Of a stretch of 64,000 nucleotides of DNA, positions 7,185-61,079 are shown piece after piece. The notes below the pieces were generated by a model that did no database searches, was not told the origin of the DNA, and worked only from the letters and a program-made list of their open reading frames with translations. Where the stretch lies: NCBI GenBank assembly GCA_029860345.1, contig JAOUBJ010000010.1, positions 1 through 64,000 on the forward strand, in the 5' to 3' direction. Numbering within the stretch: position 1 is the stretch's first letter; each line of letters opens with the position of its first letter. The position numbers were made by a program, and so were the translations under genes. Origin of the DNA: Candidatus Zixiibacteriota bacterium (GTDB taxonomy: Bacteria > Zixibacteria > MSB-5A5 > GN15 > FEB-12).

Positions 7185-7218
7185 GGGTGGCCCGGACTTC
7201 AGTCCGTGTTTCGATGAT
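7185..7218 (+). repeat. Degenerate REP (RAYT-associated family)
   Basis: Begins GGGTGGCCCGGAC and continues with GTCCG and GTTTC; it is a mutated relative of the REPs at 18873, 19553 and 26537. The CCCGGACG stem is damaged (ACTTCAGT in place of ACGTTCGT). Confidence 0.55.
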
Positions 7219-7248: not shown

Positions 7249-7525
7249 GAATGACAGCCCGGTGTCCGGACGTTTTGTGCGTGGTGTACGTCCTCGTGCG
7301 CCACGTCAGGATTGCCCAGACGTTCTTCTGCTGGGTGGCACCCTCAAACCCGGTTTGGGGGTGGCTCTTGTCTTCTCCGTCCCAGACAAGGTTTGAGACG
7401 GCCACTCGGCGGCATGACAGAGATGCCGCTCTACTAAGAAAAGATGGATTCCCGCCTTCGCAGGAATGACAGCCCGGTGTCCGGACGTTTTGTGCGTAGT
7501 GCACACCCCTGTGCGCCACGTCACG
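7249..7525 (+). repeat. Two 62-bp imperfect direct repeats
   Basis: Copies at 7249-7310 and 7464-7525 share GAATGACAGCCCGGTGTCCG, then GACGTTTTGTGCGT, and end GTGCGCCACGTCA. A shorter relative lies in reverse orientation near 26491-26535. Confidence 0.7.
7333..7407 (+). repeat. Compound palindrome, outer stem with two inner hairpins
   Basis: Starts GGGTGGCACCCTCAAA and ends with GTTTGAGACGGCCACT. Outer GGGTGGC pairs with GCCAC(C/T)C, CACCCTCAAAC pairs with GTTTGGGGGTG, and CGTC..AAAC-type halves pair around AAGG. Full relatives: 18778-18852 and 60666-60745; half-copies: 15772-15802 and 15896-15927. Confidence 0.7.
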
Positions 7526-15927: not shown

Positions 15928-16207
15928 ATAATCGTTCTCGCGTTCGTGGGCGGCAGACGTCCACATCTGCCGCCTGATGCGTCCTGGCGGAACCGCCAAG
16001 AGGGTTCCGCCCTACGTTACTTCTGACAGGAGCAGTAGGTCGAAACCCCTGTGGTTTCGACATCACACGCTTCGCGTGGTTCTATGGCTTTGTATTGGTG
16101 GTCAAAGAAAAAACAGGCCTGCCTGTCGAAACCTCGCCCTTCGACTCCGCTCAGAATGATGTTGGTTTGACTCATGCTTCGACTGCGCTCAGCATGACAT
16201 GAGGAGG

Positions 16208-16237
16208 CCGCGAAGCGGCAAAAAAGTGATTTATCAC
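16208..16237 (-). repeat. Mini-hairpin pair (CCGCGAAGCGG + GTGATTTATCAC)
   Basis: CCGCGAAGCGG (16208-16218), an A-run, and GTGATTTATCAC (16226-16237). The first stem is CCGC/GCGG here but GCGC/GCGC at 7596, a compensated change. Confidence 0.7.
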
Positions 16238-16275
16238 CCTTCGACTCCGCTCAGGGTGAGGTTGCAAGCTAGAAA

Positions 16276-16316: not shown

Positions 16317-18640
16317 TAGGGACAGGCCAGCGGCGCCGGACCGCCGGTGAACATATAGTCGACCAAATAGACCAGGTCGGCAATGTCGATAACATCGTCA
16401 CCGTTGAGGTCGGCTTCCTCGTCATTGAGCGGAGCCGGTCCACCGTTGAACATCCAATCGACCATATAGACCAAATCGGAGATATCAATACTGTCTCCAA
16501 CGTCGCCATCAACATTGCCACGAAGCCCAATGCACCCCCCACAGGGGTCGAGGTAACAGTAGTTGAAATCACCCTGGTACACTGCGCCAACCAGTTCACC
16601 ACAGTTGCCGGGTGTTAGGTTGAAACAGTCTTCGGCAGTACAGCATGCGCCACGCGCTGTGCTTACCTCACAACAACTGGGAACAGGGAAGCCGTTTACA
16701 AACACACTCATTCCGAATACGAAGTAATCTTCATACATCTGAACATCTTCGTGATCGATCTGACAATCGCCGTTCATGTCGGCGGAGTAAGGCACCGGTG
16801 GCGCCGGGCCGGTCCCCTCAACGTAGTCAATCAGGTAGGTCAGATCGCTGACCGAAAGTATGGCGCCGTCGTCATTGACATCGCCGGTGGCAAAACAGGT
16901 GGGTGCGGTGTAGTAGAAGGAGTAGATTTCAGAGTAGTCTGATGAATCTCCGACTGAGGTGCGGAAAGCTTTCACTCGCCAGAAGTAATCTTCACCCGGT
17001 ACCAGCGGCGGACCGTAGTTGGGAACCTGGTTACTGGCCGTGCCGGCCACGAAAAGATAACTCGTGAAAAGACTGTCTTCTGAAAACTCCAGGCGGTAAT
17101 AATCATCGTACTGCTTCCAACTGGTGGACCACTTAAAAGTGAAGGCGGAATCGGCGACCGATGCGCCGTCGGCCGGGGACAGTAGTCTCGGTTTCATGAA
17201 CGGGATCGTCCAGTTGGCGCCGTAGACATCCTGGTTGCCATGACGCGTGTCGGTCCAGGTGGCGTTGATATGATCATTGAATGCGGTCACGCCGATATAC
17301 TCGGCGATCAGCCCGGCTTGAGGGGATCGTTTGCCGGTGATCTCCATCCGGGGATCATCAGGCGCCGGAGTCGTGCGTCCGGAGAGTTTCAAGCTGCCGG
17401 GATCAATTGATATCTCGGAGATGCGGTGGTTGGTCGTAAAGGTGGCACCGCCGTCGAATGAGTAGGCTGCAAAAGCGTCGAATTGAAAGTGATTTATGAC
17501 GTCGGTGCGCTGATCGTACCAGAGACAAACCAGAGTACCTTCCTCGTTGCAGATCAACCAGGGATGGAACTGGTCGTAGGGCGCGCCGACTCCGATATAG
17601 TCATCGTTTATGTAGACAGGGTCGGACCAGGTCGCACCGCCGGTGGTCGAACGGACCATTTCGATATTGTAGTCCTGAAACTCCCAGTTATCCGGATCCA
17701 TATTGGCGTAGGCTACATAGATATTGCCATCGTGCGTCCCACCCCAAACATCGGTGGCAACTACCGGTTGGTTGTATACATTAACGCCACCGTCCACCGT
17801 CCCCCAATTGCCGACAGTATGACGGATCACTTCGGGGTCGGCGAAACTGACGCCGCCATCGGTCGACTTGGCCATCTTCAACGCCGTGAAATAGTCGCAG
17901 GTAGTTGTATCAAGGTCGCCGCCAATCCACATGACATATACCGATCCGTCGCTACCCACTGCCGGACAGGCAAACTGACCGGCGTCGAGTTCCCCCCAGC
18001 CGCAGGCCGACCCGTCCTGAGTAGGACCCACAATGACCGTGTCTTCGAAAGTCTGAGCACCGTCGGTGGAGCGGACGAACATCATGCGCGTCGGATTGGG
18101 GAAACGGGCCCAGGCGACATAGTAGTTGCCCGAATGGGGACCGTTGGTGCGGTCGACAACGGTGAACTGCTTATCCTCGAAGTACGGTCCCACTGTGTCA
18201 ACCAGTGTGACCGGACCGGTCCAGCTTACTCCTTTGTCGGTCGATCTCAACACCGAGATATATGATGAATCCCAGATAGTCGTCGCACTCGGCTCGTAAT
18301 CCAGCACACAGAGATAGAAGTTGCCGTCATTGTCGACCGTCAGGCAGGGGTCCGACTGTCTGGACAACACTTGCATGCTTGGATGGATCAGCGAGTCAAT
18401 CCAAAAATCGTTGGCTAACCACGAACGACCGATCCCAACCTGGCGATAGCCCAGTCTGAAATCGCGCCAGACTGCAATGATGACCGTTGAATCGGTCGGA
18501 CAGGTCCATATCTGCTCTTCGTTCTGAAGTTCCGGGGCGAAAGAGCTGATTCTATAATTTAACGGGATCGGTGGCTGAGCCGCCGCCGATACAGCTAGCG
18601 CCATAATGCCGAGGGCAATTAGAGTGGTTGCCGGTTTCAT
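16316..18640 (-). CDS. Secreted Asp-box (sialidase-like propeller) protein with two dockerin modules
   Basis: 774 residues from the ATG at 18640, chosen because GAGGAA lies upstream and the signal peptide (LIALGIMALAVSAAAQP) then starts at once. At least five Asp-box units are visible (RSTDKGVSWTGP, KSTDGGVSFADP, RSTTGGATWSDP, YSFDGGATFTT), as in sialidase and BNR propellers; no sialidase catalytic set was recognised, so the activity is unknown. A fibronectin III-like part (about 510-620) precedes a dockerin-like module (GDVNDDGAILSVSDLTYLID) and a second one at the very end (ISDLVYMVDWMFNGGPAPL, then ADLVYLVDYMF). There is no T9SS sorting domain; the protein stops right after the last dockerin. 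Confidence 0.85.
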   Translation of the reverse strand: MKPATTLIALGIMALAVSAAAQPPIPLNYRISSFAPELQNEEQIWTCPTDSTVIIAVWRDFRLGYRQVGIGRSWLANDFWIDSLIHPSMQVLSRQSDPCLTVDNDGNFYLCVLDYEPSATTIWDSSYISVLRSTDKGVSWTGPVTLVDTVGPYFEDKQFTVVDRTNGPHSGNYYVAWARFPNPTRMMFVRSTDGAQTFEDTVIVGPTQDGSACGWGELDAGQFACPAVGSDGSVYVMWIGGDLDTTTCDYFTALKMAKSTDGGVSFADPEVIRHTVGNWGTVDGGVNVYNQPVVATDVWGGTHDGNIYVAYANMDPDNWEFQDYNIEMVRSTTGGATWSDPVYINDDYIGVGAPYDQFHPWLICNEEGTLVCLWYDQRTDVINHFQFDAFAAYSFDGGATFTTNHRISEISIDPGSLKLSGRTTPAPDDPRMEITGKRSPQAGLIAEYIGVTAFNDHINATWTDTRHGNQDVYGANWTIPFMKPRLLSPADGASVADSAFTFKWSTSWKQYDDYYRLEFSEDSLFTSYLFVAGTASNQVPNYGPPLVPGEDYFWRVKAFRTSVGDSSDYSEIYSFYYTAPTCFATGDVNDDGAILSVSDLTYLIDYVEGTGPAPPVPYSADMNGDCQIDHEDVQMYEDYFVFGMSVFVNGFPVPSCCEVSTARGACCTAEDCFNLTPGNCGELVGAVYQGDFNYCYLDPCGGCIGLRGNVDGDVGDSIDISDLVYMVDWMFNGGPAPLNDEEADLNGDDVIDIADLVYLVDYMFTGGPAPLACP

Positions 18641-18777
18641 CGTGTTGTTCCTCGTATGTGCAAGTACGTTTGCGGTGTGTACCTTCTGCCTTTGTGTACA
18701 TACCAAATATACGGGTTAAACCGTTCTTTCAAAGAGATTTGATCGGTCGGAACGGGTGACAGTCGTTGACTTCATTG

Positions 18778-18852
18778 GGTGGCACCCTCAAAGCCTCTTT
18801 GGGGGTGTTTCTGTTGTTTCCCCGTCCCAAACAAGTTTTGAGACGGCCACCC
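18778..18852 (+). repeat. Compound palindrome, full copy
   Basis: GGGTGGCACCCTCAAAG at the left, CTTTGGGGGTG closing the first inner hairpin, CGTCCCAAACAAG opening the second, and GACGGCCACCC at the right. The outer GGGTGGC/GCCACCC pair is intact. Confidence 0.75.
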
Positions 18853-18872
18853 GACCGAAGACACAGATGGCT

Positions 18873-18905
18873 GGGTGGCCCGGACGTTCGTCCGGGTTTC
18901 AAGAT
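18873..18905 (+). repeat. REP, left of the RAYT gene
   Basis: 33 bp beginning GGGTGGCCCGGACG with a CCCGGACG-TT-CGTCCGGG hairpin and ending TTTCAAGAT. It is identical over all 33 bases to the copy at 19553-19585 and in the same orientation. Confidence 0.85.
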
Positions 18906-18961
18906 TGGCATATCCGTTGGTTGGGTAGAACATAAGCAATCATTCCATATTGTTCATCGTT

Positions 18962-19001
18962 CCGCAGGGTCCTTTCCGCCTTGGCGGATGAGACCCTGCG
19001 G
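18962..19001. repeat. Nested palindrome (CCGCAGGGTC family)
   Basis: CCGCAGGGTC (18962-18971) pairs with GACCCTGCGG (18992-19001), enclosing a second stem TCCGCC/GGCGGA (18975-18980/18983-18988). Relatives: 38458-38498 and 55633-55673. Its position 1 bp from the RAYT stop could make it a transcription end or a recognition hairpin. Confidence 0.75.
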
Positions 19002-19002
19002 C

Positions 19003-19512
19003 TCAGAAGAGCCAATCTTTCCAAATGGGAATCGGCCCCCTCTTATCAGTCAAGTATGACGAAGCACTTGACCACTCCCAACGCTCCGCCTGAACACAAA
19101 GACCGGCCTTCCCTGGGTTGTTATGTATGTATTCCAGTTTTGTTCGGAAGACTATCTCAGATTCTATTGCTTGTCGATCGTAACCGGTTTCCCAAATCGA
19201 GGACTTTCCAGGGGCGCCGATGTTGAGTCCGTGCTGGGCCAAATACTTCTTGAAGTCACGCATGAAGGCCGAAAGATGTTTGCCATCTATAACAATTAGA
19301 AGGTGTATGTGAGTTGGCATGAATACATAGCCCGGCAGGAGAGCGCTGTACTTTTCCATGTAGAACTTCAATGATTCGGCAATAGCTTCGTAAACACCCG
19401 GAATGTCTCCGTAGCGTTCGTGGCGAAAGAAAGATGTGGTCACAAAAAAACACGAACCATGACCCTGTTCTTTGAAGCGTAATCCCATAGGTCGAATAAG
19501 CTGTCGGGTCAC
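19003..19512 (-). CDS. REP-associated tyrosine transposase (RAYT, Y1/IS200-like)
   Basis: 169 residues if started at GTG 19512, or 161 from the ATG at 19488; the start is undecided. The HUH motif is MPTHIHLLI (about 65-73) and the C-terminal helix LEYIHNNPGKAGL carries the conserved Tyr and the RAYT 'YIHxNP' block; SSASSYL follows, also typical. RAYTs are single-copy, domesticated Y1 endonucleases that nick and move REP palindromes. Two identical 33-bp REPs flank it (18873-18905 and 19553-19585), which supports the assignment. All key residues appear intact, so the enzyme may be active. Confidence 0.92.
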   Translation of the reverse strand: MTRQLIRPMGLRFKEQGHGSCFFVTTSFFRHERYGDIPGVYEAIAESLKFYMEKYSALLPGYVFMPTHIHLLIVIDGKHLSAFMRDFKKYLAQHGLNIGAPGKSSIWETGYDRQAIESEIVFRTKLEYIHNNPGKAGLCVQAERWEWSSASSYLTDKRGPIPIWKDWLF

Positions 19513-19552
19513 AATTTTGGCAAGCCAAAATCAGGACCCAACAGAACATTGC

Positions 19553-19585
19553 GGGTGGCCCGGACGTTCGTCCGGGTTTCAAGAT
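19553..19585 (+). repeat. REP, right of the RAYT gene
   Basis: Identical to 18873-18905, same orientation, 40 bp upstream of the RAYT start. Followed by a GAGCGGAGTCGA-type palindrome at 19609-19650. Confidence 0.85.
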
Positions 19586-19691
19586 AGCTTCGATGGTGAT
19601 CAACCTCACGCTGAGCGGAGTCGAATCCTGCCCTTCGACTGCGCTCAGGGCGGTCCTTCGGACCAGTGGTTTCGACCTACCCAACCAGAGA

Positions 19692-19746
19692 GCGATTCAT
19701 CGCAACGTGATGTATCACCGCGAAGCGCAAAAAACAGGATTGCCTG
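19692..19746 (-). terminator. Four mini-hairpins abutting the metalloprotease stop
   Basis: GCGATTCATCGC (19692-19703), GTGATGTATCAC (19707-19718), CGCGAAGCG (19719-19727) and CAGGATTGCCTG (19735-19746). The last touches the stop codon at 19749-19747; on the minus strand it is followed by TTTTTT, as a short terminator would be. Confidence 0.6.
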
Positions 19747-21858
19747 CTACAAACAGGCCACCGGCGCCGGTCCATCGTTGAACATAAAGTCGACGACATA
19801 CACCAAATCAGCGATATCAATCTCACCACTACCGTCCATGTCGGCCTCACCCGTACACGGCGGCACCGGTCCGTCGTTGAACATAAAGTCAACGAGATAG
19901 ACCAAATCGGCGATATCGATTCCACCGACATTGTCGACGTTACCTCTCAGCTGGCAGCACAGCGCATCGCACACATCGCCGATACCGTCATTGTCTTGAT
20001 CGGCCTGGTTCAGATTGGTAGAGTCGGGACAGTTGTCGCACAAATCGCCCAGGAAGTCACTGTCGGAGTTCTGCTGATCGGGATTGTGGGTCTCGACACA
20101 GTTGTCGCAGTAATCACCGACATCATCGCTATCGTGGTCTTCCTGAGCCGGGTTACCATCATTGACGCAATTGTCGCAACTGTCACCGACGTTGTCCGCA
20201 TCCAGATCGCTCTGATCAGCGTTGGCCAGCAGCGGACAGTTGTCACACAGATCGCCGACATCATCGCCGTCGGCATCAAGCTGATCGGGATTGGCGGTGT
20301 TGGGACAGTTGTCATCGAGATCAGACACGCCGTCATCGTCGGCGTCGAAAAAGAGCGGGTTGTAAACATGAACAGCCAGTTGATCTCCGTCGCGACTCAG
20401 CACCTCGACTATGATGCCGGTGGGTCCGGAGTAACCGTCGCTCGACGGCGTCGTCCCGGGTCCAAAAATAGACTTACCAGGTACTTCGTTCGTAAAAGGA
20501 GCGCCGATCCTGGTTTCGTAGGGATACCACCAGTCGGCGCTGTCACTCAGTACGCCGCCGGGGTTGTTGGTGTAGTCCATCGATGGATTGTACCCTGCGT
20601 CTTCCAGAGCTACCATGTAGTTAGGGAAGTCCGGCCAGCCATCGTTGGTCATATACCAGTGAACTGAGTCGTGAACATGGGTAATGATCAGCCCGCTGTT
20701 CAGAGTGTCGGCCCCGAACGACAGGTCGGGCCAGAGCCAGACAGAATAATCGCCATCGAAATGGTCAAACTGGGCTGTCGATTGAGCGTTGCGATACTCA
20801 AGCAGAAAGTACTCACCTTCTGCAACATCAATCGGAAGTTTGAACAGCGAGTTGTTTTGATGGGTCTCTATGTCGTTCATGATTATCGTCGTATCGACAC
20901 CTTCGAGTACAATCGGTTCGTTGTAGCCCAGCTTGGCTTTGCACCAACCGCTGAGATGCGGCACCGTTTTGCCGCGATGCATCTTCTGGTATCCCCCGTA
21001 GGCCATGATGCAATAGTTGACCATGGGGTGGTCATTGGCATCATTCGGAGTGGTATAAGTACTCAGGTCCAGCTTGGCGTCGTAATCATAAAGGTCCGGC
21101 AGTCCCATGTTATGTGTCAGTTCATGAGCAAAGACCCTGATGGCGTTGAGGCTGTCTTCGCCTGAGTAGAAAATCGGAAAGGTGGTGTCCCTCAATGGCT
21201 GCAACTCAGGCGATGTATTCCACCTGGTAACATACATGCCCCCGTCGAAAGGCCCCGGCGCATTCTGTGCACTGTAGCCGGTGGCAAAAGACCAGATGTC
21301 CGTCGGGTCATGACTGTCTTCCTGACCGGTGCCGGACCGGACGATGACAACCGCGTCGACATAACCGTCATTGTTGCCGTCATACTGCGAATAGTCGATC
21401 GCAGTGTCCAGCGAGTATATTATGTCGGTGACGAACTCGTAGAGATTGAAATTGCCACCGCTGTAAGACCCACCGTTCACCCAGCCGTAGCAATCACCGT
21501 CGACCGCCTGTGTGCCGTATGAGACCTCATCGAAAAAGTCCGCCATCGATCCGGACGCCCACTCGTTGCGCGAGAACAGAAGGGTATCCATAGTCTCTTT
21601 CGAGTAGGTTGCCGGGCGGTCATCCCAGTCGACCAGTATTGCCACCACTTTGACCGTATCGCCATCGAAACGGAATGATTCGATTTCCTGACGCTCAGTT
21701 CTGCTCAGCAGCGAGGTTGGGTCACCGCCGAGGGTCTTGGCGAATTCGCTCGGTGGTAGATCATGAATCAGCGCCGGACGGATTTTCTCGGCGCTTGAGG
21801 AAGCGACCAGCAGACCGGTGCAAAGAAGTGACAGAGAGATGGCTTTGACGAATTTCAC
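19747..21858 (-). CDS. Secreted M6-type metalloprotease with TSP3 repeats and dockerin
   Basis: 703 residues from a GTG at 21858, preceded by AGGAGGT at ideal distance. Signal peptide FVKAISLSLLCTGLLVASSSA. The catalytic zinc motif HELTHNMGLPDLYD (near 248) is that of M6 peptidases (immune inhibitor A type); the prodomain-like part has IKxVAILVDWDDRP and MADFFDEVSYG. From about 495 at least five calcium-binding thrombospondin type 3 repeats follow (DADDDGVSDLDDNCPNTANP and similar), then two dockerin-type halves (IDIADLVYLVDFMFNDGP, EIDIADLVYVVDFMFNDGP). No T9SS sorting domain is present. It would act outside the cell on protein substrates, perhaps held by a cohesin-like partner. Confidence 0.88.
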   Translation of the reverse strand: MKFVKAISLSLLCTGLLVASSSAEKIRPALIHDLPPSEFAKTLGGDPTSLLSRTERQEIESFRFDGDTVKVVAILVDWDDRPATYSKETMDTLLFSRNEWASGSMADFFDEVSYGTQAVDGDCYGWVNGGSYSGGNFNLYEFVTDIIYSLDTAIDYSQYDGNNDGYVDAVVIVRSGTGQEDSHDPTDIWSFATGYSAQNAPGPFDGGMYVTRWNTSPELQPLRDTTFPIFYSGEDSLNAIRVFAHELTHNMGLPDLYDYDAKLDLSTYTTPNDANDHPMVNYCIMAYGGYQKMHRGKTVPHLSGWCKAKLGYNEPIVLEGVDTTIIMNDIETHQNNSLFKLPIDVAEGEYFLLEYRNAQSTAQFDHFDGDYSVWLWPDLSFGADTLNSGLIITHVHDSVHWYMTNDGWPDFPNYMVALEDAGYNPSMDYTNNPGGVLSDSADWWYPYETRIGAPFTNEVPGKSIFGPGTTPSSDGYSGPTGIIVEVLSRDGDQLAVHVYNPLFFDADDDGVSDLDDNCPNTANPDQLDADGDDVGDLCDNCPLLANADQSDLDADNVGDSCDNCVNDGNPAQEDHDSDDVGDYCDNCVETHNPDQQNSDSDFLGDLCDNCPDSTNLNQADQDNDGIGDVCDALCCQLRGNVDNVGGIDIADLVYLVDFMFNDGPVPPCTGEADMDGSGEIDIADLVYVVDFMFNDGPAPVACL

Positions 21859-22033
21859 GGTGGGACCTCCTGGTTTGTCTTCGGCCGCCATCCTGCCGCA
21901 AGGTTTGTACTGGGCGGCTTGGTGACGGATCGCAACGGATGTAACTTGCTGTAAATATACCGTAAAAGCTCCACACGGCAAGGTGTAATCGGCCAGGAAC
22001 AGGGATGATGCGGACCAGTTGGGTTTTGTAGAG

Positions 22034-22069
22034 AAAAAGCGGCCGCCCGAGGGGCAGGGCGGCCGCTTT
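22034..22069 (-). terminator. Intrinsic terminator of the GGDEF-like gene
   Basis: A 13-bp GC-rich stem AAAGCGGCCGCCC / GGGCGGCCGCTTT with an 8-nt loop; on the minus strand it runs into TTTTTC. It lies 31 bp after the stop at 22100. Confidence 0.85.
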
Positions 22070-22099
22070 GGAAATGGGAGGTATAAAAAACAGGGGTCT

Positions 22100-22540
22100 T
22101 TAGTTGTTGGTCTCCAAGGGCGCGATGTCACTGAGCATTTGCTGAACGGTACGCGCTCCGGCAGCATCCGGAAACGACGCCATCTCCAAAGGGATGACAT
22201 GATCGCCGGAATCTGAGCTAACCGACTGAAAACTGCTGCGGATTATCTCGGCCACACGACGGCCGGCTACTTCGGCCCCCTGGCGCGGCGTTTCCGGCAG
22301 CAAAACAGCCACTTTCCCGGTTTCGACTAAAGCCGTATAATCGACCGAACGGGTATTGCCGGTGACCAAATCGACCAGCTTAGCCAGATCGGCAATCTCG
22401 CCTCCACCAGAATCGGCCTCGATCGAATTGAGATCAAGTACTATCAGGGAAACGAATATCCTGTAGCGCTCAGCGCGTTGAAGTTCTCTTCCAACACGTT
22501 CCACAAACGGCTTTACATCGGCTGCTGTTGTCATGTTCAT
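22100..22540 (-). CDS. Degenerate GGDEF-like domain protein
   Basis: 146 residues, cytoplasmic. The fold pattern of a diguanylate cyclase domain is visible: VGRELQRAERYRIFVSLIVL(D), a variable helix, then TRSVDYTALVETGKVAVLLP where active enzymes have R..D...R.GGDEF....LP, and AGRRVAEIIR after it. The GGDEF signature itself is replaced by VETGKV, so cyclase activity is very unlikely; a binding or scaffolding role is possible. It stands alone between two long gaps, with a strong terminator after it. Confidence 0.6.
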   Translation of the reverse strand: MNMTTAADVKPFVERVGRELQRAERYRIFVSLIVLDLNSIEADSGGGEIADLAKLVDLVTGNTRSVDYTALVETGKVAVLLPETPRQGAEVAGRRVAEIIRSSFQSVSSDSGDHVIPLEMASFPDAAGARTVQQMLSDIAPLETNN

Positions 22541-24707: not shown

Positions 24708-26180
24708 TTATTGTGTGGAGTCGAAGGGTGGCGGCGTCTGAGACCCAACCAACTCGTTAATAAACTCCATGATCAGCCGCCGCAGCTCGATGGTTAATGA
24801 ATCGCCCGGAGCGTATTTCAGGGAGCTGTCACAACTGTTGAGCGCCTCCTCAAACCGAAGAAGAATGGCTAGAGAAGTGGCTCGGCCCGTCCAGGCTTTG
24901 TCTTGTTCAGGATCGGAAGCCAATGCGCTATCGAAACTGGCAATCGCTTCCTCGTGACGATCGAGCATGACCAGACCGTGACCGCGGCTGCGCCAGGCTT
25001 CACGAAAGTCAGGCTGGTAAGCCAGAGCGCTGTCGTAACTGGCGATTGCTTCCTCGTAACGTTCCAGTTCGTTCAGGTCACGACCCCGGGCGAACCAAGC
25101 CTTATCGAGACTAGGTTCAAGGGATAGGGCATTATCGTAACTGGCGACCGCTTCTTCGTAAAGGTCAAGGGCACCGAGAGCACGGCCACGGCTGTACCAG
25201 GCATCGCTGCGGTTGTGTTTGTAGGCCAGTGCACTGTCATAACTGGCAATAGCTTCTATGTAACGATCGAGTTTGCCCAGCGCGATACCCCGGTTGTACC
25301 ACGCTCCATGATCGTCACGCTCATAGAACAGAGCGCTATCGAAACTGGCAATTGCTTCCTCGCCGCGTCCGAGTTCGGCCAACGGGATGCCGCGATTGCT
25401 CCAAGCTTTAACCATGTCTGGTTTGTAAGCCAATGCACTGTCAAAACTGGCAATAGCTTCCTCGTGACGATCAAGTCTGCCGAGAGCAACACCGCGGTTG
25501 TTCCAGGCATTATGGTCGTCTGGTTGGTAAGCCACAGCACTATCGGCGCTAGCGATGGCTTCTTCGTGAAAACCGAGGTTATTGAGCGTACTACCGCGGT
25601 TGGTCCAGGCAACATGTGACTGTGGACTGTATGTGACGCAACTGTCGAAGCAGTTGAGCGCGAGCGTGTTCTCCCCTAGCTTGGAGAACGCAACCCCCTT
25701 GTAGAAAAACACCTCAAATCGCTGGCTCAGGTCTTCGCCTGCCGCTGTGAGTGCATAGCCGAGATGAGTTAGCGCCTCATGATACTCTTCCAAACCGATA
25801 GCCACTTTGCCACTGTCGAGCGCCGTTTTGACGATCCCCTCCAGGCACTCCGCCTGCTCATAGGCGAGGGCTTGGCATTCGGGATCAGGATCTGCTTGAC
25901 CTGCCGATTTCTTAATGAGCGCTTCAAGGCTGTCCATTTTGCAGGTCATCTCGTTACCGAGGCTGTCAACTTTGCCAGATATGATGGTGTCTACATCGGC
26001 TGGGGTAGCGGGTTTATCCGATGGCCAGAAGCCCACGAAGGCTATCAGCACGCCGATGGCTTCCACGACTATTCCCAGAATAATGCCGCGCCGCGCCGGC
26101 CACTTACGCAGTTTACCTATCTTGATGACCAAACCGGCCACGGCAGTCGTAAAGAGCAGAATCGATATGATCAATCCCAA
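24708..26180 (-). CDS. Membrane-anchored TPR protein
   Basis: 490 residues from a TTG at 26180, chosen because a perfect AGGAGGT lies 7 bp upstream and the hydrophobic segment then follows immediately. Two membrane segments (LGLIISILLFTTAVAGLVIK and GIILGIVVEAIGVLIAFVGF), a polar linker, then from about residue 140 at least nine 34-residue TPR units in a regular row (EEAIASFDSALAYKPD and AWNNRGVALGRLDR recur). TPRs mediate protein-protein contact; the partner is unknown. The DNA of the repeats is also similar from unit to unit, suggesting recent internal duplication. Confidence 0.85.
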   Translation of the reverse strand: MGLIISILLFTTAVAGLVIKIGKLRKWPARRGIILGIVVEAIGVLIAFVGFWPSDKPATPADVDTIISGKVDSLGNEMTCKMDSLEALIKKSAGQADPDPECQALAYEQAECLEGIVKTALDSGKVAIGLEEYHEALTHLGYALTAAGEDLSQRFEVFFYKGVAFSKLGENTLALNCFDSCVTYSPQSHVAWTNRGSTLNNLGFHEEAIASADSAVAYQPDDHNAWNNRGVALGRLDRHEEAIASFDSALAYKPDMVKAWSNRGIPLAELGRGEEAIASFDSALFYERDDHGAWYNRGIALGKLDRYIEAIASYDSALAYKHNRSDAWYSRGRALGALDLYEEAVASYDNALSLEPSLDKAWFARGRDLNELERYEEAIASYDSALAYQPDFREAWRSRGHGLVMLDRHEEAIASFDSALASDPEQDKAWTGRATSLAILLRFEEALNSCDSSLKYAPGDSLTIELRRLIMEFINELVGSQTPPPFDSTQ

Positions 26181-26536
26181 ACGTCGACCTCCTACCCTGC
26201 AGTATAGCGGACGGCGAGGACAGGGACAATGCCTAAGTTCACTGTGCGCCATGACTCACGCAAATACACCACCAACTCCCCCTAAAGTGCGCCCACGCAA
26301 CCATCCATAAGGAGCAGGAAATGGATACCAGTACAAAGCAATCCGCCGCACCCCACACCGCCAAACCGGTCCAGCCTCGTAATCACCATCGATTCTATTT
26401 CCCCAGAACAAAAAACACGCCAGACGAACCCATTTGCTCAGGGGGGCTGGCCGGAAAAACGTTTTTCCGTAAAACGAACCCATTTCCCCCGTGGCGCACG
26501 AGGATGTACACCACGCACGAAAAACTCGGCCTGACC

Positions 26537-26566
26537 TGAAACCCGGACGAACGTCCGGGCCACCCA
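26537..26566 (-). repeat. REP, inverted orientation
   Basis: Reverse complement of the RAYT-flanking REP: AAACCCGGACGAACGTCCGG followed by GCCACCC. The hairpin is intact. It is about 7 kb from the RAYT. Confidence 0.8.
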
Positions 26567-38228: not shown

Positions 38229-38457
38229 AGATTGCCGCGTCGGTCACTGCGTTCCCTCCTCGCAATGACCAGCCACCCGTCATGTCATGCCGAGCGGAGC
38301 AACCGTAGGTCGAAACCCCTGGTCCGCAGGACCGCCGTAGGCGGGTTTCGACATCCCGCGCGGCGCGGGATTCTTAGGCTTTGTCTTGTGGATGGAGATG
38401 TCGAGGTATGGGCGATTGACCCGTAGAGCAGAACCGCTTCTGGTTCTGCCACTCTGA

Positions 38458-38498
38458 CCGCAGGGTCACACCCGCCTCCGGCGTGCAGGACCCTGCGG
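38458..38498. repeat. Nested palindrome (CCGCAGGGTC family)
   Basis: CCGCAGGGTC and GACCCTGCGG enclose CGCC-TCC-GGCG. Same outer arms as at 18962-19001 but a different inner stem, again perfectly paired. Confidence 0.8.
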
Positions 38499-38697
38499 AA
38501 CAGTCGCCAAAACCCACCGAGTCTGAAGACTCAGTGGGCACAAGGTTCAAGCCATGTCATGCCGAGCGGAGTCGAGGTATGAACGCGGTCGAAGCATGAG
38601 CCATAATCACAGTATTTGTCCCCAAAACCCCCGAATGCGATGGTCTGCACCGCCTTAACAAGCCAATATCGAATGCGAAAAAAGCTCAAATAAGGTG

Positions 38698-39223: not shown

Positions 39224-39599
39224 ACAGTGGTTTCGCTGCTGATATACAGCAGTTGTCAAAAAATGAAAGAGGTCGGCAAGATGCCGGCCTCTTTTTTTGT
39301 GCGCGAAAGGGCTTGTTGAAAAAGCCTCTGTAGCCTGTTGCGGTGGGTTCTGTCCGCCGCGGCCGACGCAAGCGAATTCGTGTGACCCGCCGCCACTGTG
39401 TCACATTGAGTTAGGTGTCGGGTCACCACTACGCCTTCGGCGCGTTCAGGACCCGACACAACAAACCACGGACTTTATCAACACTCCCCAGCGGTGCGCT
39501 TGCCTTTGAATAAGCCGGAATTGCGCTTCCCAATGCACAAGTCAGGTGCTATATTCGTCTTATAGGAGGAACGGACAGGTCGGACGGAGGAAACGAACT
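39224..39599. other. Non-coding gap after the RRM gene
   Basis: Holds the terminator at 39268-39298. The stretch 39340-39500 has GACCCGCCGCC- and GGGTCACCACT-like arms but no clean palindrome. A TATATT at 39550 might be a -10 box for the next gene, without a good -35. Confidence 0.6.
39268..39298 (+). terminator. Intrinsic terminator of the RRM gene
   Basis: AGAGGTCGGCA and TGCCGGCCTCT pair (one G-T pair) around AGA, followed by seven T. Confidence 0.9.
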
Positions 39600-55505: not shown

Positions 55506-55812
55506 GCCCACGCTCAATCACCAAAGCAAGAAGTAGGGTGGGTCCGTCTTCGGGACCCGCCAAATCAAGAAAAACACGGCTTGATCGTGTCAGGACCACA
55601 AGGGTCCCGACCTACTGGGGCTACTAAGCGTAGCGCCGGGTCTCACCCGCCTGCGGCGCGAAGGACCCAGCGCAACATTTAGGTTGTGCAGCAGGTGTCG
55701 GGCGGAGTCGCCCAACACCACCAATGATGCCCGACGGCATGCTTCGATTCCGCTCATGCTTCGACTCCGCTCAGCATGAGGTTTGGGTGACTCAGGATGG
55801 AGTTGTTGTGGG
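55506..55812. other. Non-coding stretch between convergent genes
   Basis: Palindromes: GGTGGGTCC..GGACCCGCC (about 55537-55562; relatives at 58646 and 60861), GTCAGGACC..GGTCCCGAC (about 55589-55616), a nested element (55633-55673), GGTGTCGGGCG..CGCCCAACACC (about 55691-55718) and GCTTCGACTCCGCTCAGCAT (about 55758). No gene. Confidence 0.75.
55633..55673. repeat. Nested palindrome (CCGCAGGGTC family, diverged)
   Basis: GCGCCGGGTC and GACCCAGCGC enclose CGCC-TGC-GGCG. The outer stem has one mismatch; the inner stem is as at 38458-38498. Confidence 0.7.
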
Positions 55813-59978: not shown

Positions 59979-60077
59979 CCCGAGCGGAGTCGAGGGGCGA
60001 CTATTAACCTCACCCTGAGCGAAATCGAATGGCCAGGTTTCGACAACTGTAGGGCAGGATCCCTGCGATCCTGCCAC

Positions 60078-60552: not shown

Positions 60553-60665
60553 CGGCTTGACCGTGACGCCCACGGCTTGACCGTGACGCCCACGGCTTGA
60601 CCGTGTGTTATGCCGAGCCGAGTCGAGGCATGAATTCCTGTGGCTCAGCCCACTCCTCGACTTCC

Positions 60666-60745
60666 GGGTGGCACCCTCAAAGCTTCTTTGGGGGTGACTA
60701 TACTACCTGGTGCTTCCCTCCCAAACAAGGTTTGAGACGGCCACA
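60666..60745 (+). repeat. Compound palindrome, full copy
   Basis: GGGTGGCACCCTCAAAGC, CTTTGGGGGTG, a variable middle part and CCCAAACAAGGTTTGAGACG followed by GCCACAC. The inner hairpins are intact; the outer right arm is changed by one base. Confidence 0.7.
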
Positions 60746-61079
60746 CATCCCCGCGCGACCTGAAGATCACGCGGGCACAACAAGCACCCCTCGACTGCGC
60801 TCGGGGTGACATGGAAGGGTCGCTCAATGTCATGGTGAGCGGAGTCGAACCATGAATCCCGTAGGGTGGGTTCGTCTTCGAACCCGCCATCTTCGGTAGG
60901 TCAGGACCCTTGTGGTCCTGACAAATGCGGCAGGTCTCCAAGAAAAGAGAGACCTGCCCTACAAAGACTGGATTCCGGGTCAAAGCCCGGAATGACAATC
61001 GAAGAACTGTCCGCACTCTGTTCACCCTGCGACTGCGCTCGGGGTGACATGAAAGGATCGCTCACCATGAGGTGAAGGA

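Follow-up and report, generated by a model that had tools for sequence, protein, structure and literature searches.

The transposase gene described here lies in a 64,000-nucleotide stretch of a Zixiibacteriota contig, to which we refer as the window, and it is surrounded at close range by two kinds of palindromic repeat, namely a pair of REPs headed by GGGTGG and a pair of composite hairpins headed by GTT. The features concerned are the following.

18873..18905, plus strand: GGGTGG-headed REP of another family than the GTT hairpins, taken for a bystander, 53 bp beyond the proposed element
18959..19001, plus strand: 3' composite hairpin, head GTT at 18959-18961, inverted with respect to the 5' hairpin, heads outward
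19003..19488, minus strand: Y1 (HUH/Tyr) transposase gene of RAYT type, 161 aa, probable ATG start (MGLRF)
19501..19547, minus strand: 5' composite hairpin, head GTT at 19547-19545, 10-bp outer stem, 3/3 internal loop and inner stem; lies 12 nt upstream of the ATG
18959..19547, no strand: proposed element GTT-hairpin / transposase / hairpin-AAC, 589 bp, same layout at 24 of 28 homologues
19553..19585, plus strand: second, identical GGGTGG-headed REP, read as a bystander, in direct orientation, 5 bp outside the element
38458..38501, minus strand: solo GTT hairpin, covariance model 50.1 bits
39337..39462: REPIN-like GTT doublet (39337-39393 plus, 39415-39462 minus) with a 21-bp spacer
55633..55676, minus strand: solo GTT hairpin, covariance model 44.7 bits

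The ATG at 19488 was taken as the probable start of the transposase gene since MGLR or a close variant begins nearly all homologues, and this gives a protein of 161 aa; the alternative is a longer open reading frame of 169 aa with a GTG start at 19512. The protein matched Pfam Y1_Tnp with 25.8 bits (cut-off 23) and scored 75.5 bits with NCBIfam REP_Tyr_transpos, which is under the cut-off of 80 of that model. Its closest solved structure by sequence is the E. coli TnpA_REP 4er8 (E=2e-12), which was also the closest by fold when a predicted model (pLDDT 87.8) was searched with Foldseek (rank 1, E=1.7e-9, TM 0.70). H60, H62 and Y120, which form the HUH motif and the catalytic tyrosine (YIxxNP), were invariant in all 28 aligned homologues, the alignment set being 28 intact proteins from 27 genomes. 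The sequence-only reading of this DNA had called the gene between the REPs a RAYT, and this is borne out by the Y1_Tnp match and the likeness to 4er8, the catalytic residues being unaltered in relatives. The HUH motif of the window protein is PTHIH, the lineage has mostly PSH or PTH (P[ST]HxH) with WM or WE as its W motif, and the chain stops shortly past the WSSA region with no C-terminal HTH extension. Judged from these sequence features, the gene encodes an intact RAYT-type (TnpA_REP-like) Y1 transposase with predicted activity on single-stranded DNA. Of 132 Zixiibacteriota genomes, 27 (the own genome among them) hold homologues with 44-58% identity, usually one close copy per genome, and the named records of the lineage belong to Zixiibacteriota or candidate division GN15. 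No further close copy of the transposase unit was found in the own genome, and no second gene lies between the GTT hairpins, so that the transposase is alone in the element. Two readings of the protein and its locus were dropped: a defence system, for which PADLOC matched 0 families, and the idea that an S/T ahead of the first His is peculiar to the lineage, since more distant Y1s of several phyla have it too.

The two REPs are exact matches of GGGTGGCCCGGACGTTCGTCCGGGTTTCAAGAT at 18873-18905(+) and 19553-19585(+), with 0 in 100 shuffles, and the same sequence recurs with 3 mismatches at 26533-26565(-) and, in decayed form, at 7185 (76% identity to the reference REP). Thus two identical 33-bp REPs in the same direction, an inverted copy reported at 26537 and a decayed one at 7185 are indeed present where the sequence-only reading had placed them. 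When REP copies were mapped in the genome, as that reading had proposed, the 23-base REP core with up to 3 mismatches was found at 19 places (reversed control 0), and allowing any 4-base loop and 1 mismatch gave 21. The core was exact in 6 of the 19 copies, all 6 of which have the same 29 bases (GGGTGG...TTTCA), followed in 5 of 6 by the tail TTTCAA, and the window pair is the commoner 30-base form extended by three bases (GAT). Since the 33-bp identity amounts to the family consensus with only GAT extra, it is weak evidence of recent events and tells only that both REPs are consensus copies. Furthermore, no link between the REP family and the transposase was seen, as GGTGGCCCGGAC REPs occurred in 6 of 27 transposase-bearing against 14 of 105 other genomes (Fisher p=0.24), the latter including five sister species of the own genus, and the abundance of GGTGG REPs across the phylum does not follow transposase presence; the recent movement that had been read from the perfect identity is therefore not sustained. 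Close REP pairs elsewhere in the phylum (n=10, starts at most 111 bp apart) comprised 8 outward-headed inverted and 2 direct ones, so that the direct pair in the window is not the usual doublet of this REP family. It may be noted that in 3 of the 19 genomic copies a GGGTGGCCGTCTC palindrome stands within a few bases after the window-type REP.

Inside the REP pair, and abutting the transposase, sits the pair of GTT hairpins, which had been missed in the sequence-only reading; its suggestion that other palindromes might be moved by this enzyme agrees with the position of these hairpins on both sides of the gene. The covariance model scored 56.9 bits for the 5' hairpin (19501..19547) and 42.7 bits for the 3' hairpin (18959..19001), and on folding as single-stranded DNA they gave dG -12.5 (z -5.8) and dG -17.3 (z -7.3), respectively. 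A palindrome scan around the homologues revealed a common architecture of about 45 nt, in which the head GTT is followed by a 10-bp outer stem with GGTC/GACC, an internal loop, an inner stem and a loop; the inner half of the outer stem is mostly CAGGTC or NNGGTC and the internal loop commonly YTG / TGT. Such hairpins were present near all 28 homologues, in 27 cases by a simple detector and in the last (L066) by the covariance model, and the simple detector placed them on both sides of the gene in 24 of 28; among the exceptions, L026 has no upstream hairpin and that of L059 is 184 bp off and in the wrong orientation. The detector demanded a GGTC/GACC stem and thereby selected for pairing itself; what stays independent of it is the head, the internal loop and the kinds of change. 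The head, which was no part of detection, was GTT in 42 of 51 gene-adjacent hairpins. Strict matches numbered 106 in 7,179 bp beside the genes versus 6 in 54,811 bp farther away, both strands being counted, and the GTT-headed hairpins were oriented consistently, with 20 upstream (+) and 22 downstream (-) against 2 upstream (-) and 4 downstream (+).

The stems also covary. In an alignment of 48 of the 51 hairpins, which left out the two of L032 (no inner stem) and the downstream one of L055, changes on both sides were seen in 14 of 16 stem pairs, making up 169 such cells, a result reached in 0 of 500 shuffles. The covariation score was 0.503 versus 0.179 in shuffles, none of 500 being as high, and it fell sharply if the partner was slid. 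RAYT genes are described in the text of Nunvar 2010 (PMC2817692) as always flanked by two inverted REPs, and at our locus it is the GTT hairpins, and not the GGGTGG REPs, which flank the gene in this manner. As a separate observation, at L034 (G042:C73) the end of the transposase gene and its 3' hairpin are tandemly repeated behind the gene, which we read as a trace of hairpin-to-hairpin duplication.

The hairpins follow the transposase across the phylum as well. They were found in all 27 transposase-bearing genomes (median 25), as against a median of 1 in the other 105 (Mann-Whitney p=5e-10), these counts being lower bounds with at most 46 candidates scored per genome. In 11 mixed genera the bearer had more hairpins in 10 (p=0.006), a within-genus comparison that corrects for kinship only crudely. 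Hairpins also occurred in 58 of the 105 genomes with no close transposase, 9 of which have 20 or more, and among the six sister species of the genus, four (G001, G003, G005 and G006) carry 35-40 hairpins and no close transposase; this implies that hairpins persist or spread alone, or that another enzyme serves them, or that the gene is missing from the draft assemblies. At 18 other Y1 loci (4 in the own genome and 14 more distant ones in the phylum) we noticed no GTT hairpin match at all, and matches among 80 genome-contig loci were confined to Zixiibacteriota or GN15 records apart from one weak pair at the Ignavibacteria locus L172.

Within the own genome the hairpins are widely dispersed. 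The covariance model gave 122 matches, which together with two from the window amount to at least 119 non-overlapping places, a lower bound since 150 of 1,869 candidates were scored. A 400-kb sample yielded 5 matches, 4 of them new with respect to the genome-wide scan, and as about 10 would be expected for 119 evenly spread copies, the copies are uneven and their total uncertain. Of 20 hairpin pairs at most 250 bp apart, 15 were outward, 2 inward and 3 direct, and in 9 of the 15 outward-headed doublets the spacer is exactly 21 bp long. These spacers are alike in one or other orientation, 4 of 8 agreeing with the reference spacer in at least 15 of the 21 positions, where the random expectation for agreement in at least 14 is about 0.0003. 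The similar 21-bp spacers and outward heads indicate that the doublet is REPIN-like and asymmetric, and that it shares its outward layout with the transposase element. We also observed a 182-bp block, 97% identical between window 39307-39488 and G000:C6 about 152857-153038, which comprises a GTT doublet and flanks with GGCTTGTTGAAAAAGCC and is a larger repeated unit than the doublet. At G000:C8:30489-30779 there are three direct tandem GTT hairpin variants with a 122-bp period, in which GGTTC/GAACC replaces GGTC/GACC.

On this evidence we consider it highly probable that the cognate repeat of the RAYT is the GTT composite hairpin adjoining it in inverted orientation on both sides, and not the GGGTGG REPs farther out, and that the solo and doublet hairpins are its non-autonomous population. 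The hairpin, whose structure, covariation, gene association and dispersal are described above, would fold on single-stranded DNA and be bound through its foot and conserved internal loop, which the enzyme would read. The GTT(C/G) foot would then guide the choice of cut site, the part played by GTAG in known RAYTs, and the catalytic tyrosine would cut and subsequently rejoin, by a catalytic logic which we take to be that of IS200/IS605 (IS608). Solo hairpins and 21-bp-spaced outward doublets would be non-autonomous REP/REPIN-like copies to which the RAYT lineage gave rise, and the GGGTGG REPs would be present simply since the intergenic region is REP-rich. These REPs would belong to a separate GTGG system, perhaps that of C3, another RAYT of the own genome, which lies amid GGGTGG-headed palindromes of two kinds; that the C3 enzyme acts on the window-type REP is suggested by these surroundings.

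An enzyme serving both families, its own GTT hairpins and the GTGG REPs as an ancestral leftover, is the alternative which survives best. Of 14 sister Y1 genes in the phylum, 8 do have a GTGG hairpin on either side, but the REPs have no significant link to the enzyme, as seen from the genome counts above, and the many GGGTGG REPs around C3 offer them another partner, so we regard dual service as improbable. Slightly less probable in our view is that the GTT hairpins serve the transposase gene as bidirectional terminators, or block its translation, and are not substrates of the enzyme. They adjoin the start and stop codons and fold stably, but more than 100 copies lie away from the gene, outward doublets with a conserved spacer (9 of equal 21-bp spacing) are not accounted for, the unpaired head is conserved, and the hairpins are absent at the 18 other Y1 loci; such a role and that of substrate may also coexist.

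The remaining alternative concerns the history of the locus. The left flank gene was matched in 3 of 6 sister species of the genus, two of which were used, G001 (74%) and G006 (70%), and for the right flank gene none of the six gave a match at E<=1e-60. Both species used have the left gene, after which homology resumes at window 22041, so that 18600-22040 (about 3.4 kb) is missing; this stretch holds the REPs, the transposase and a long ORF (19747-22200) which reads like a candidate secreted metalloprotease. The edges of the gap match neither REPs nor GTT hairpins, and insertion of a small element is thus neither proved nor excluded; no empty site for the GTT-hairpin element was found, and neither G001 nor G006 shows a clean empty site of the kind that the sequence-only reading had suggested looking for. 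In IS608 hairpins of the same strand stand at both ends. That the two direct REPs are likewise the ends of a recently moved, IS200-like REP-RAYT-REP unit, as had been proposed from their perfect 33-bp identity and same orientation, is the least probable reading of all. In its favour, G001 and G006 both lack a block with the transposase at the corresponding position, and sister Y1 lineages do carry GTGG heads. Against it, the REPs are external to the GTT hairpins, a direct pair of GT[AG]G hairpins (one on each side of the gene, at most 200 bp away) was found at only 2 of 28 homologue loci, namely the window and L037, where the sequence is a different GTAG one, the identity is accounted for by the family consensus, the unit has no second genomic copy, the REP family is unlinked to the gene and pairs mostly outward, and the sister gap extends far beyond the right REP.

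Other repeats were noticed in the window and the genome. More GTAG- or GTGG-headed hairpins of other sequences lie at window 15946-16061, 38423-38452, 60049-60077 and 60896-60922, and a TTCGACTSCGCTCAG palindrome family has many direct and inverted copies (1729-1758, 16139-16274, 38551-38601, 55738-55794 and 60785-60874). Six tandem copies of a repeat with a 102-nt period, 62-75% alike, occupy 24911-25566. GGGTGGCACCCTCAAA and (reverse) CGTCCCAAACAAGGTTTGAGACGG, both GGGTGG-headed, stand side by side as a BIME-like composite at window 7332-7409, 18776-18854 and 60665-60748, and both palindromes are also found around the C3 RAYT.

The own genome has four further Y1 genes, five in all, and several REP families alongside them. 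At one of these RAYTs (L001, G000:C2:378274) three direct GTAG REPs about 100 bp apart lie upstream and one inverted REP downstream, which indicates that direct REP repeats occur beside another RAYT of this genome too. To our knowledge, nearly all described RAYT systems have kept the GT[AG]G foot. As GTGG hairpins flank 8 of the 14 sister Y1 genes and GTT hairpins none of them, and the transposase lineage carries GTT, the change of head happened between relatives. In a tree of 124 of 127 loci with usable protein (L169, on the same contig as L033, was dropped), 30 lineage members cluster with a node support of 0.215, which rises to 0.993 on inclusion of L041, L050 and L176. L041 and L050 have no GTT hairpin, L050 showing GTGG heads on both sides, and given this and the support of 0.215 the head switch can be placed only roughly. 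We see about even chances that the RAYT lineage switched the guide head of its cognate REP from GT[AG]G to GTT, with sister lineages keeping GTGG.

Among known systems, the element resembles RAYT/TnpA_REP (E. coli rayT, Stenotrophomonas, Pseudomonas; REPtron) in its single Y1 HUH gene, inverted hairpins with an unpaired foot, and dispersed copies and doublets; it differs from those with GTAG or GTGG REPs in its GTT foot and in a hairpin of about 45 nt built of a 10-bp outer stem, an internal loop and an inner stem. As GT[AG]G is absent and GTT prevails (42/51), we did not file it as a canonical GTAG-class RAYT and classed it as a variant. Corneloup 2021 (PMC8266576) shows that the choice of cut dinucleotide depends on the foot, and that TnpA_Sm no longer cleaves when the foot is GTTG. 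The main text of Quentin 2018 (PMC6006769) describes 'atypical secondary structures' with no GT[AG]G foot for TnpA_Y1 subclass 2.6 (RAYT group 5) and class 3, and our hairpins are similar in lacking this foot and in having copies elsewhere in the genome. The tyrosine motif YIH[QN]NP of subclass 2.6 fits the window protein, but by its description that subclass has NH[LIV]H, WQ and about 179 aa and is mostly from Bacteroidetes, whereas here we have mostly P[ST]HxH, WM/WE and 161 aa in Zixiibacteriota, and the class 3 foot is described as CnGA in contrast to GTT (PMC6006769). The transposase lineage may be a branch near subclass 2.6, though the main text of that paper does not give its foot and hairpin. 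The TIRtron/TIRYT elements, as described in Di Nocera 2013 (PMC3733652), likewise have a RAYT-like gene between inverted repeats, of which some are self-complementary and dispersed. Most TIRYTs are placed by the main text of Quentin 2018 in subclass 2.1 and described as having a GGGGWSAS motif and an HTH at the C-terminus (PMC6006769); this filing was dropped, as the 161-aa protein has no C-terminal HTH and GGGGWSAS is absent from the hairpin consensus. Filing under IS200/IS605 (IS608), which shares the fold of the transposase, was also dropped in view of the single close copy in the own genome, the 44-58% identity between genomes and the lack of a tnpB-type second gene. In the literature covered, which left supplements and most subscription papers outside its scope, we found no description of GTT-footed REPs or of Zixibacteria RAYTs.

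RAYTs are thought to coevolve with their own REPs, and of this recognition the GTAG foot is what is understood best. Should the foot direct the cut in the way known for IS608 and TnpA_Mb, the predicted cut dinucleotide of the present lineage would be (G/C)A and not CT, and the residues of the enzyme that read the foot would have had to change accordingly. The finding also calls for caution in REP-rich genomes, where the repeat that seems by eye nearest to a RAYT may not be its partner. The GTT lineage, its GTGG sister enzymes and dozens of covarying hairpin variants together make a ready substrate panel for the recognition code.
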